Part shown: in pieces, positions 40,973 to 44,289 of the stretch
Layout: the number at the start of each line of letters is the position of its first letter
How positions within the stretch are numbered: the first letter of the stretch is position 1
NCBI RefSeq assembly: GCF_007993045.1
Contig: NZ_VOOR01000035.1
Coordinates: 1 to 54,386 of the forward strand
DNA length: 54,386 nt
Direction: 5' to 3'
DNA from: Phaeodactylibacter luteus
Lineage (GTDB): Bacteria > Bacteroidota > Bacteroidia > Chitinophagales > Saprospiraceae
Position numbers and translations under genes: made by a program
Notes under the pieces: model-generated
What the model saw: the letters and a program-made list of their open reading frames with translations, nothing else
Database searches by the model: none
Told to the model about the DNA's origin: nothing

Positions 40973-41734
40973 GTGATCAAAACGGTCATTATTGAAGATG
41001 AGATCAATGGCCTCAATAACCTCAAGAATATGCTCCGGGAGCATTGCCCGGGCGTTGAGGTGATTGGTGCAGCCCAAAGCCTCGAAGAGGCAGAATCGCT
41101 TTTTAAGCTGACCACGCCAGACCTTGCGTTCCTCGATATCAGCCTGCCAGACGGCTTGATCTTTCAGTTGCTGAACCGCATCCGGCCCGTCCATTTTGAG
41201 ATCATCTTTGTCACGGCTTACCAAAAGTACGCCATCAAGGCTTGTGAGTACAGTTCTATTGGCTACGTGATGAAGCCCATCGACCCCGATCAGCTCAAGG
41301 AGGCCGTAGCTAGGGTAGACCTCCGCCGGAAACCGGAAACGGACAAAAGGCTGGAGCTGTTCAATGCTTACCAGAAAAACCCGAACGCCTTCAATAAGCT
41401 GGGCATTTCAGCCCTTGACGGGATCTACTTCGTGCACATCACCGATATCGTGCGCTGTGAAGCTGAAGACAATTATACCCACATCTTCCTCAAAGAAGGG
41501 AAAAAGATTACCGCTTCGAAGACCATCAAAGCGTTTGAAGATATGCTCACCCCTTTCAATTTCTACCGGGTGCACAAGAGCCATGTCATCAACCTGAATT
41601 ATATGCATAAGTTCGTCAAAGGTGATGGGGGGTACCTTATCATGGACGACAATATACAGATTGAAGTTTCCCGCCGCCGCCGGGCTGCTTTTATGGAGCA
41701 AATTAAGCGGTATCAGGAGGGGATGGCGCTGTGA
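40973..41734 (+). CDS. LytTR family response regulator
   Basis: The 253-residue protein has a receiver domain (residues 1-120) with acidic pocket Glu8/Asp9/Glu10, phospho-acceptor Asp55 (DLAFLDISLPDG), Thr81 and Lys101 (VMKPID). A LytTR DNA-binding domain follows (residues about 145-250; YFVHITDIVRCEAEDNYTHI, FYRVHKSHVINLNY). It should bind DNA after phosphorylation by a LytS-type kinase, and the soluble TPR kinase 620 bp downstream is the obvious partner. It starts at GTG 40973, which aligns with the usual receiver N-terminus. The hairpin at 41865-41903 ends its transcript before the peptide gene. Confidence 0.92.
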   Translation: MIKTVIIEDEINGLNNLKNMLREHCPGVEVIGAAQSLEEAESLFKLTTPDLAFLDISLPDGLIFQLLNRIRPVHFEIIFVTAYQKYAIKACEYSSIGYVMKPIDPDQLKEAVARVDLRRKPETDKRLELFNAYQKNPNAFNKLGISALDGIYFVHITDIVRCEAEDNYTHIFLKEGKKITASKTIKAFEDMLTPFNFYRVHKSHVINLNYMHKFVKGDGGYLIMDDNIQIEVSRRRRAAFMEQIKRYQEGMAL

Positions 41735-42131
41735 AAGCCTGCTAGGCCGCTTCAGCGCACAGCCCTATATGTAGATAAGTTTCCAGTCAAAACAGTCAGT
41801 GAAAGCCCTTGCAAGAGCGCATTTTCCATGCCTTCCGGTAAGCAAACAGCACTGACACGCACAAGCCGGCCGCTTGTGATATGACAACACGCCGGCCTAT
41901 TTTACGCACAAACAGATTTGCACATTTCAAGTATGGCTTTGGGGCGGTACAGTCGTTGCCCCAAGCGCTCAAGGAGCTTGCTTGTATGTTTCAACTATCT
42001 ATTTGTGAATAAAATATGTTTAGCAAAAAGGGTTCCCGTTACCATTCCGCTGAATGTTTTGTTACTTTTACAGCAGGTACGTGGTAGAGATCCCGAAAAC
42101 ACTTTACACTTCGTGCACAAAATTATCTACT
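41735..42131. other. 397-bp gap between response regulator and GG-peptide gene
   Basis: The gap holds the terminator at 41865-41903 and the leader of the peptide gene. CGTTAC and TGTTAC, in the stretch from about 42033 to 42068, are two similar words 23 bp apart. They resemble the paired repeats bound by LytTR proteins, which are usually about 21 bp apart. TACTTTTA next to the second word could be a -7 box. These sites are suggestive only. Confidence 0.35.
41865..41903 (+). terminator. Terminator of the LytTR regulator gene
   Basis: Two GCCGGC arms, with an inner TTGT / ACAA pair, form a stem-loop followed by CTATTTT. It lies 130 bp after the regulator stop codon and separates it from the peptide gene. 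Confidence 0.7.
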
Positions 42132-42269
42132 ATGGGAAAATCAAAAAAGAACCTGGCAGACCTCAAAAAGGAGATCAAAACCATCAAGAAGTCTGATCAG
42201 AACAAAATCGTCGGAGGTAAGGGTAAAAAGAACTATAACAACGGCTGCAGCGATATTGTACCGCAGTAG
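42132..42269 (+). CDS. 45-residue double-glycine leader peptide, candidate signal or RiPP-like precursor
   Basis: The peptide is lysine-rich at the front (MGKSKKNLADLKKEIKTIKK, then SDQNKIVGG) and has Gly-Gly at residues 28-29. Cutting after Gly29 would leave a 16-residue core, KGKKNYNNGCSDIVPQ, with one cysteine at residue 39. Double-glycine leaders are normally removed and exported by peptidase-containing ABC transporters. None is in this window, and no modifying enzyme is near. It sits between a LytTR regulator and a soluble TPR histidine kinase, is followed by its own terminator, and is far shorter than nearby genes. ATG 42132 gives the usual charged leader; an upstream in-frame start would add 26 residues without this pattern. 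Function as a signal is inference. Confidence 0.72.
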   Translation: MGKSKKNLADLKKEIKTIKKSDQNKIVGGKGKKNYNNGCSDIVPQ

Positions 42270-42305
42270 CTGGCTCTGAACCCCCCACACGAGTAAAGCA
42301 AAAAC

Positions 42306-42342
42306 AAAGGCTGTCCTTGCATAAGCAAGTATAGCCTTTTTT
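42306..42342 (+). terminator. Terminator between the GG-peptide gene and the TPR kinase
   Basis: AAAGGCT pairs with AGCCTTT, and an inner CTTGC-ATAA-GCAAG stem stacks inside; a run of six T follows. It ends 15 bp before the kinase start codon. Partial read-through would give high peptide and low kinase levels from one promoter. Confidence 0.85.
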
Positions 42343-42357
42343 AATATATTAGAGGTT

Positions 42358-44289
42358 ATGTTTTATGACAACCCCAACCCGGACGAGCTGCAGCCCTTAG
42401 CGCTGGAGGAAAAGCTGAAGCAGCAGGCTGACAGCCGGCAGCGCTTGCTTTTGCTCGATAAGCTCCTTTCCCGGTATGCCTATACCAACGTCAAGCGTGC
42501 CGAGGAGCTGCTGGAAGAGCTGGGCGGTATTTTGGAGGGGGAGTCCAATAAAGACATCCTGGTCAATTATCACCTTTTGGCGTCTACGGTAGCCAATCAG
42601 CTCAACAAGTACGAGGAGGCTCAGGAGCACATCCTTCAGGCCATCAAGCTGGTGGAGGAGCGGGGCACCGCCCGCGAACAGATAGACGCTTATATCGACT
42701 TTGTAGGGGTGTGCATCAACCTCAGGGACATGGGGCGCGCCATTGATTACATCCAAAAGGCGGAGGCCCTGCTCAAAAGCTTCCCGGATTCAAGGCTGGA
42801 GTCGCGCCTGATGTGCAGAGAAGGGTTCGTCAGGCTTTACTCCCGCGATCATTCCGGGGCGGTCGAAGCCCTGCTCCGGGCTGATCAGCTCCTCAATAGC
42901 TTTGGGGAGCTGGCTCTGAAAGACTACTACTTCCTCTCTTTGATACAAGCCGGCCTTGGGCGGGTGTATGAGCTCAGCGGCGAACGGGAAAAGAGCGCTG
43001 CGGCTTACGGCAGGGTAGTAGCTATTTGTGAAAACAAAGCGCTACATGCACGCCTTTCTTGGCACTACGTCAATGCTGGCAATGGCTACATGAGCCTCAA
43101 TGATCAGGAAACTGCTGAAGCTTACTTCCGCCGGGCCATTGAAATTTCGGACGACAGCAGCGAGATCGCCCGTGCTTTCGCTTATTCCAACCTCGGGTAC
43201 TGCGCCATGGAAAAAGGCGACTATGGCGACGCCCTCAGCCTTTTTGACCGGGCAGAGCAGACTTACCGGCAGCGGGAGGAGGATATGGCGGAGAACCAGA
43301 TGAAAATCGATCTTTGGCGGAGCCAGATTTACACGGAGCTAAAGCAGTATGCAAAGGCAGAAGAGGCACTGAGGATCGCCCTGCAGCATGCACAGGCGGA
43401 GCAGAACCCAGAGTACCTGGCTACCGTTCACAAAAGCACGGCGGCTTATTTTGCGGACCGGGGCGACTTCGAAAAGGCTTATTCCCATTTTGCGCACTAC
43501 GACCGGTACCGCGAGGAGCAGATAGCCAACTCTGATCAGGACCGCCAAAGGGAGATCGAGGCCAAGTACGAGGCAGAAAAGAAACGGCAGGAAGCCGAAA
43601 TGCTGCAGCTGCAGGCGACCGGGCTTCAGCTCAAAGCGCTGAACGCTCAGATGAACCCTCACTTCATGTACAACGCCCTCAATTCCATCCAAAACTATAT
43701 CACCTCCCACGATGTCAACCTCGCTACCAAGTACCTGGCCAAGTTTGCACAGCTTATGCGGCAGAGCCTAGAGTACTCCAATCAAGAGGTCATCTCGCTA
43801 GAAGAGGAAATCCAATTCCTCGAGCAGTACCTTTATATCAATGAAAAGCTCCGTTTCAACGACCGCCTCGACCACGAAATCATCATTGATGAGGAAATAG
43901 AAGAAGATATACTGGGGGTCCCTACCATGATCATTCAGCCCTATGTGGAAAATGCCATTGAGCATGGGCTCAGCACTCGCAGCGATGGCATGATCAAAAT
44001 CCTCTTCCTGCTCTATGACGAGGAGACCATCCTTTGCAGGGTGGAGGACAACGGCATAGGCTTCAATAAAGCCCGGCAATTGAAGCTCAATGACCCCCGG
44101 TACCAAAACCACCGCTCGCGGGGCACTTCCATTACAGAGGAACGGCTGCGTATCTTACGTAAAGCACGGGGGCACGAGCAATCTGTCCGCACCATTGACC
44201 TGGCTGAAGAGAGCGGGGGCAAGGAGCAGGGGACACGGGTGGAAATCCTCATCCCGATACGCGAGATCAACCTGGGCAAAATATCCTGA
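42358..44289 (+). CDS. Soluble TPR-LytS-type sensor histidine kinase
   Basis: The 643-residue protein has no signal peptide and no membrane segment. Residues about 25-390 are TPR repeats (RAFAYSNLGYCAMEKGDYGD and similar). A short coiled coil follows (about 393-425), then the His_kinase domain with the phospho-accepting His435 in MNPHFMYNALNSIQNYI. The ATP-binding domain has PTMIIQPYVENAIEHGL (about 525-540) and VEDNGIGFNKA. LytS-type kinases in Bacteroidota often have a membrane segment between TPR and kinase; this one lacks it and should sense in the cytoplasm. TPR domains bind short peptides in other regulators. Its neighbours, a LytTR regulator and a double-glycine peptide, make it the likely centre of a peptide-signalling unit. 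A dispersed element begins within 10 bp of the stop. Confidence 0.93.
   Translation: MFYDNPNPDELQPLALEEKLKQQADSRQRLLLLDKLLSRYAYTNVKRAEELLEELGGILEGESNKDILVNYHLLASTVANQLNKYEEAQEHILQAIKLVEERGTAREQIDAYIDFVGVCINLRDMGRAIDYIQKAEALLKSFPDSRLESRLMCREGFVRLYSRDHSGAVEALLRADQLLNSFGELALKDYYFLSLIQAGLGRVYELSGEREKSAAAYGRVVAICENKALHARLSWHYVNAGNGYMSLNDQETAEAYFRRAIEISDDSSEIARAFAYSNLGYCAMEKGDYGDALSLFDRAEQTYRQREEDMAENQMKIDLWRSQIYTELKQYAKAEEALRIALQHAQAEQNPEYLATVHKSTAAYFADRGDFEKAYSHFAHYDRYREEQIANSDQDRQREIEAKYEAEKKRQEAEMLQLQATGLQLKALNAQMNPHFMYNALNSIQNYITSHDVNLATKYLAKFAQLMRQSLEYSNQEVISLEEEIQFLEQYLYINEKLRFNDRLDHEIIIDEEIEEDILGVPTMIIQPYVENAIEHGLSTRSDGMIKILFLLYDEETILCRVEDNGIGFNKARQLKLNDPRYQNHRSRGTSITEERLRILRKARGHEQSVRTIDLAEESGGKEQGTRVEILIPIREINLGKIS

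Follow-up and report, generated by a model that had tools for sequence, protein, structure and literature searches.

Can a histidine kinase that lacks any membrane segment read a peptide exported by a Gram-negative cell? This testable question is raised by a locus on contig NZ_VOOR01000035.1 of Phaeodactylibacter luteus, whose genome (G000, 6.0 Mb) belongs to the family Haliscomenobacteraceae (Saprospiria). The stretch of 54,386 nucleotides that was analysed is called the window hereafter. It carries, on the same (+) strand, genes for a LytTR response regulator, a small peptide with a double-glycine (GG) motif and a histidine kinase with tetratricopeptide repeats (TPR). A first-pass annotation of this DNA had described a LytTR regulator, a 45-residue GG peptide and a TPR kinase on one strand, and all three were located where it had placed them. 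Peptide pheromone signalling has been described mainly in Gram-positive bacteria. In the ComCDE and BlpC-H-R systems of streptococci, the gene of a GG peptide has those of a histidine kinase and a LytTR regulator as neighbours, export is carried out by an ATP-binding cassette (ABC) transporter with a C39 peptidase domain, and the peptide is bound outside the cell by the kinase, a polytopic membrane receptor. In the RRNPP systems of Gram-positives (Rap-Phr, NprR-NprX, Rgg-SHP), short peptides come back into the cell by way of an oligopeptide permease and are bound by TPR domains. The receptors are phosphatases, anti-activators or DNA-binding proteins, and the propeptides are, as a rule, not GG-leader substrates of C39 transporters.

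Our best reading is that of a ComCDE-like circuit having a cytoplasmic TPR kinase as its receptor. That the three genes make up a three-component unit, in which the GG peptide is exported, re-imported and bound by the soluble TPR kinase with the LytTR protein as output, is in our judgement about an even call. In such a circuit, the 45-residue precursor would be made from its own promoter. An unlinked C39-peptidase ABC exporter would cut the 29-residue GG leader and export a short basic peptide whose conserved C-terminal end is PQ in most cases. Either the whole peptide or a fragment would come back to the cytoplasm, most likely via an oligopeptide importer of general use, and the TPR superhelix of the kinase would bind its C-terminal part. 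Binding would alter the phosphorylation of the LytTR regulator, which would then adjust the peptide promoter and probably other genes too, the sign and the targets of this regulation being conjectural.

The small open reading frame (ORF) is a real gene. A peptide search of 197 relatives gave 39 genomes, that of P. luteus included, with one copy each; Phaeodactylibacter xiamenensis KD52 and Flavilitoribacter nigricans DSM 23189 are among the carriers. Ten pairs of relatives showed 126.5 synonymous vs. 29.5 non-synonymous differences (pN/pS = 0.056), a ratio indicating that the gene is under purifying selection. According to the first-pass annotation, a freely varying GG, combined with the lack of a ribosome footprint, would have spoken against a signalling peptide; the motif is invariant in 38 of the 38 relatives found by similarity. 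In the aligned relatives, the conserved parts are the leader and the far C-terminal end, and a variable basic stretch directly follows the GG. The trait is restricted at larger scale. A profile (A1) made from 38 of the 39 peptide-bearing genomes, L048 being left out, has matches, at E ≤ 0.1, in 117 of 396 relatives, a portion of them weak or limited to the leader. Across the phylum, only 3 of 395 genomes are matched at E ≤ 0.001, namely P. luteus itself, one family member and one leader-only case; hence, the peptide is a family-level trait. Within the P. luteus genome, a profile containing the window peptide (A4) retrieved that peptide (E 5.2e-15) and no further GG peptide, the one other match being at chance level (E 1.09).

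The C-terminal end was counted in two sets. Among 63 GG ORFs lying in gaps between LytTR and kinase genes, collected whatever their ending, PQ is terminal in 55 and proline penultimate in 62. A broader set of 76 distinct peptides was collected with a loose GG pattern and restricted to the endings P[QHLRSP], QP, NQ or QQ, which rejects for instance L035, L043, L129, L134 and L138; the 65 PQ endings counted in it are conditional on that filter. Cores are 16–20 residues long in 66 of the 76, with a median net charge of +4. The window peptide has its GG at positions 28–29 and a core ending in GCSDIVPQ, a slight departure from the common GCGGI[VL]PQ. An earlier description of the core as 16 residues with one cysteine is right for this peptide; the cysteine is not a fixed feature of the family, being found in 56 of the 76 cores and absent from 20, and never occurring twice.

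The linkage of the peptide to the kinase was best measured from the kinase side. A kinase search of the 197 relatives (E ≤ 1e-60, at most six candidates scored per genome) selected 64 genomes, all from the family of the window, and the DNA before the kinase was inspected in each. A GG-leader ORF lies upstream of the kinase in 51 of them, within 512 nt in 50 and at 3.2 kb in G083. In seven others (G020, G038, G056, G086, G098, G106, and G111), the peptide is found behind the LytTR gene and the kinase is elsewhere. Thus, the small ORF, whose loss from genomes keeping kinase and regulator had been counted as a refutation by the first-pass annotation, is retained in 51 plus 7 of the 64. In G045 and G068, the only candidates are unlinked, and the one in G068 is weak; G015, G031 and G033 yielded no peptide, either with the A1 profile or in the DNA preceding the kinase. 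Seven kinase genomes without an earlier peptide match (G015, G031, G033, G064, G066, G084, and G115) served as a blind test; a GG ORF precedes the kinase in three of them (G064, where it ends in GMVPQ, G066, and G115) and a GG-less relative does so in G084. Where a LytTR gene and a kinase gene are direct neighbours, 63 of the 65 gaps separating them hold a GG-leader ORF, vs. 0.7 in shuffled sequences and one on the opposite strand. However, most of these loci came from peptide matches, so that the 64 kinase-selected genomes are the fairer denominator. The tallies do not count the GG ORF of L069 (109 residues), which looks like an ordinary protein, nor the loci L115 and L123–L127, where neither orthologue is present. 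The regulator has the Pfam domains Response_reg (PF00072, E 3.4e-15) and LytTR (PF04397, 1.5e-19), and an orthologue with 60–73% identity occurs in 33 of 38 peptide loci. By these counts, the trio is a conserved unit. Variants of the arrangement were also seen. L085 has two tandem GG peptides between the LytTR and kinase genes, ending in FAPQ and GGIVPQ. Genus g41 has orphan GG peptides ending in GGTIP[QL] (L169 10341–10553, L159 4016–4225, and L158 4360–4569) with no LytTR or kinase orthologue alongside, the kinase of G045 being on another contig.

Leaders of C39 substrates carry hydrophobic residues at positions -4, -7, -12, and -15 before the GG. In the 76 peptides, position -4 is I/V/L/F/M in 72, -7 is M/L/I in 64, -12 is L/I/V/M in all 76, and -15 is L/I/V/M/F in 64; in the window peptide, position -7 is Q. 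The family therefore shows the GG-leader features of precursors handled by C39 peptidases, or peptidase-containing ABC transporters (PCAT). Weak matches to leader models (E ≤ 1) were obtained among the 38 A1 members, 15 to TIGR01847, 11 to TIGR04149 and one or two to ComC models, the best among members other than the window peptide being to TIGR04149 (E 0.00019). Three C39 matches were obtained in the P. luteus genome; two belong to complete pairs of C39-ABC and HlyD genes, and the third is cut by a contig end. No GG peptide occurs among the ORFs listed around the two complete pairs. The transporter had been expected to lie elsewhere in the genome, and the two unlinked pairs agree with this, as does the fact that C39 tracks the kinase: it is present in 62 of 64 kinase-bearing vs. 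13 of 55 kinase-lacking family members (Fisher p 3.5e-18, ignoring shared ancestry). C39 is missing from two kinase-bearing genomes, G015 (87% complete) and G031, and both belong to the three in which no peptide was found (p 0.0015, ignoring ancestry). In G015 (locus L066; that of G031 is L068), no more than 18 nt separate the LytTR match from the kinase match, which possibly marks a re-purposed two-component pair. The leader and the co-occurrence with C39 both support the predicted cleavage and export of the peptide, and the co-occurrence suggests a substrate for orphan C39 exporters. Related leaders are found on lanthipeptide-like precursors in the relatives L125 and L127, in the latter beside a C39-ABC gene. 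As separate observations, L125 (2948–3627) has three tandem cysteine-rich GG precursors matching the class I lanthipeptide leader model NF038153, and in L124 (5222–5823) the GG precursors, also in tandem, have the ends DNDIIIVDMDEI and DNNIIIVDEDML and resemble graspetides on visual inspection; one of the L124 precursors was scanned and matched no NCBIfam family.

The kinase is composed of TPR repeats followed by His_kinase (PF06580, 9.5e-22) and HATPase_c (PF02518, 3.9e-8) domains. It had been called soluble, and hydropathy bears this out: no membrane segment is seen, the maximum over 19 residues being 0.99 vs. 3.0 in the neighbouring ion channel, and the highest value among 75 orthologues being 1.71. 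An AlphaFold2 model built from 62 sequences (alignment A3, 61 of the 75 orthologues plus the window kinase) has a mean predicted local distance difference test (pLDDT) score of 87.9 and comprises a TPR superhelix, a long helix and a kinase core. Among the 50 Protein Data Bank (PDB) fold matches listed, the best for the TPR part are the eukaryotic LGN and O-GlcNAc transferase; the best prokaryotic ones are RapI, a phage Rap with its peptide, pLS20 Rap, RapF, and NprR. Five residues, R154, N278, N121, R232, and N80, are 97–100% conserved among the 62 kinases and sit, in the model, in or at the end of the first helices of the repeats; from the register of the repeats, they would line a peptide groove. 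Matches to the importer families SBP_bac_5 and PTR2 are present in the P. luteus genome, and it is plausible that the mature peptide is re-imported and bound by the modelled TPR domain. In two genomes of genus g36, a second peptide gene, of the form GG...CGNIVP[QE], lies between a BrkB-family gene and a gene for a 469-residue TPR protein lacking kinase domains (L154 1955–2137 and 2542–3951; L170 9701–11110 and 11405–11587; the TPR assignment comes from a scan of the L123 copy). This pair again joins a peptide and a TPR protein, in support of a receptor role.

Motifs were searched in 40 LytTR-peptide intergenic regions, those of relatives included. A box, TTTTGTACTTTTA, reached a log-likelihood of 121 vs. 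42–49 in shuffles and starts 60–92 nt before the ATG in 26 of the 40 regions; it resembles the -7 box of Bacteroidota promoters. A second element, TATTTGTAATAAAAATATGTA-like (score 86.9), was called in 31 of the 40 regions; in 14 of the 31, it precedes the promoter box by 48–51 nt. It may be an activator site, bound by the LytTR regulator. With up to three mismatches allowed, the peptide promoter is its sole site in the P. luteus genome. The consensus form has no match in the window, even at the site of the peptide gene itself; such patterns are therefore blunt, and other targets may escape them. A third motif scored 55.3, near the shuffle level, and is not claimed. Terminator-like hairpins followed by a T run occur in 43 of 68 peptide-kinase gaps, vs. 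3.0 expected from shuffles. In the window, the hairpin ends about 15 nt before the kinase start, so that the earlier description of the peptide gene as a terminator-bounded unit is right for its downstream side. A simple promoter and terminator scan had listed neither the promoter nor the terminator of the peptide; motif search and folding did. Since a terminator-like hairpin precedes the kinase gene, the kinase is probably expressed by read-through, at a level below that of the peptide.

Several observations weigh against a signalling circuit with a TPR receptor, and they are gathered here. Neither Pfam nor NCBIfam has a model that the window peptide matches. The small ORF of G084 ends in CGDLLPH but lacks the GG, and in G033, which has the kinase and C39, no peptide was found. 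The association of C39 with the kinase, uncorrected for shared ancestry, may partly be kinship. In the same way, the intergenic regions come from related genomes, so that the conservation of their motifs is partly ancestry, and the upstream element is not a recognisable LytTR repeat, whereas ComCDE- and Blp-type systems have direct repeats for LytTR binding, and with them autoinduction, at the peptide promoter. As to the receptor, LGN and O-GlcNAc transferase outrank Rap in the matches to the model; TPR folds are generic, hence the likeness to Rap and NprR is support rather than proof. The conserved TPR residues could be structural instead. Importer presence is uninformative because oligopeptide-binding proteins are near universal (SBP_bac_5 in 193 of the 197 relatives). 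Finally, a candidate covariation between kinase residue 156 (Gly/Ala) and the last peptide residue was rejected: six of seven kinases facing a peptide not ending in Gln had Ala, but Ala also occurs with PQ peptides (L079, L080, L085, and L148), and the lineages are loosely placed in the tree.

Other explanations share part of this evidence. The kinase may bind the uncleaved precursor inside the cell, from which the C39 exporter would remove it; the kinase would then read the balance between synthesis and export of its own peptide, with neither re-import nor a signal between cells. A soluble kinase, the conservation of both the leader and the C-terminal end, the co-occurrence of kinase and C39, and the lack of a system-specific importer among the SBP_bac_5 and PTR2 families examined would all suit such sensing of export flux. 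We nevertheless consider it unlikely, as a variable basic stretch after the GG followed by a conserved far C-terminus fits a processed peptide better; G084, where the C-terminal end is kept and the GG is absent, could fit either view.

The idea that the peptide is a bacteriocin or another modified natural product, the kinase and the LytTR protein controlling its production through a different TPR-sensed signal, draws on the short basic cores, on the weak matches of some family members to bacteriocin and lantibiotic leader models, and on the related leaders of lanthipeptide-like precursors. It is made improbable by the single copy in each of the 39 genomes, by a core end that is conserved rather than diversified, by the number of core cysteines (never more than one, and none in 20 of 76) and by a linkage that is to the kinase and regulator; moreover, a Pfam scan of five window neighbours gave no modification, immunity or transport gene for the peptide. 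Most doubtful in our eyes is a small basic protein acting without export, in which the GG would be a hinge, the kinase or DNA would be the partner, and the co-occurrence with C39 would reflect ancestry only. Strong purifying selection across the whole ORF, the basic composition and the uncorrected phylogeny of the C39 counts go in this direction, but the hydrophobic positions of the leader agree with the C39 rule and both C39-less kinase genomes are also without peptide.

The circuit with a TPR kinase as receptor can be compared with known systems. With ComCDE and Blp, it shares a GG peptide, a histidine kinase and a LytTR regulator encoded together, and C39 ABC export, established there and predicted here. 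In contrast to their polytopic membrane receptors, the kinase has no membrane segment and has TPR repeats at its N-terminus; moreover, the C39 transporters are on other contigs and the host is a Gram-negative member of the Bacteroidota. With RRNPP systems, it shares a cytoplasmic TPR protein next to a small propeptide gene (in 51 of the 64 genomes), and Rap and NprR are the best prokaryotic TPR fold matches among those listed. However, the C-terminal part of this TPR protein is made of His_kinase and HATPase_c, unlike RRNPP outputs. FimS of Porphyromonas (NCBIfam NF053520) is likewise a TPR histidine kinase of Bacteroidota, and the window kinase matches it weakly (E 1.2e-6), its 27.1 bits being far under the 600-bit family cut-off. 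FimS is membrane-bound and, to our knowledge, has no GG peptide.

In the literature, the closest Bacteroidota examples are Bacteroidales clusters for ribosomally synthesized and post-translationally modified peptides (RiPPs), which likewise combine GG-motif precursors with C39 transporters. A histidine kinase and a response regulator are also part of one of them, BGC5; signalling was suggested by the authors for BGC4, 5, 7, and 8 (PMC10352776). These clusters differ in being biosynthetic, several with modifying enzymes, and the part of the text examined describes no unit of soluble TPR kinase and LytTR regulator (PMC10352776). In Nostoc, a Gram-negative, HetC has been proposed to be a C39 transporter with a possible role in exporting a signalling peptide (PMC10986499). 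The RRNPP_detector survey, in its examined part, analysed only complete Firmicutes genomes (PMC10075063), and the examined text of a review on two-component quorum sensing nowhere contains the terms TPR or tetratricopeptide (PMC8895600). Among the literature matches listed, whose scope leaves out preprints and most subscription journals, there was no description of the layout with GG peptide, TPR kinase and LytTR regulator. We regard it as a novel variant within two-component signalling by peptides. As a Bacteroidota case, it would offer named carrier strains together with a ligand and a receptor domain, both predicted, and, if confirmed by experiment, it would be a new form of bacterial peptide signalling. 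We suggest tentatively, at somewhat less than an even chance, that it represents a Bacteroidota class of peptide quorum sensing, in which an exported GG pheromone returns and is read by a soluble TPR kinase, combining a ComCDE-type output with an RRNPP-type sensing.

The features of the locus are given in Table 1.

Table 1. Features of the LytTR-peptide-kinase locus, numbered from the first nucleotide of the window (kinase layout in residues).
Feature	Position	Strand	Basis or remark
LytTR response regulator, 253 amino acids (aa), GTG start	40973..41734	+	Pfam Response_reg and LytTR; orthologues in peptide loci
Element 5' of peptide promoter, candidate activator (LytTR) site, putative role	42000..42022	+	Second intergenic motif
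Peptide-gene promoter box TTTTGTTACTTTTA	42057..42070	+	Intergenic motif search across relatives
GG peptide precursor, 45 aa	42132..42269	+	Homologues, GG leader, pN/pS, gap counts
Peptide leader, 29 aa	42132-42218	+	Ends at GG 28-29
Predicted peptide core, 16 aa	42219-42266	+	Stop codon 42267-42269
Putative terminator (hairpin followed by T run) in the peptide-kinase gap	about 42304-42343	+	Folding, -18.1 kcal/mol
Soluble TPR histidine kinase, 643 aa	42358..44289	+	Pfam, hydropathy, AlphaFold2, fold matches
Kinase: helical TPR part	about residues 13-367
Kinase: long helix	residues 371-448
Kinase: His_kinase	residues 424-504
Kinase: HATPase	residues 525-635

The five flanking genes scanned are ordinary: by Pfam, they encode a BCCT transporter, a universal stress protein (Usp), an ion channel, a penicillin-binding protein, and a protein with a weak SnoaL-like match.

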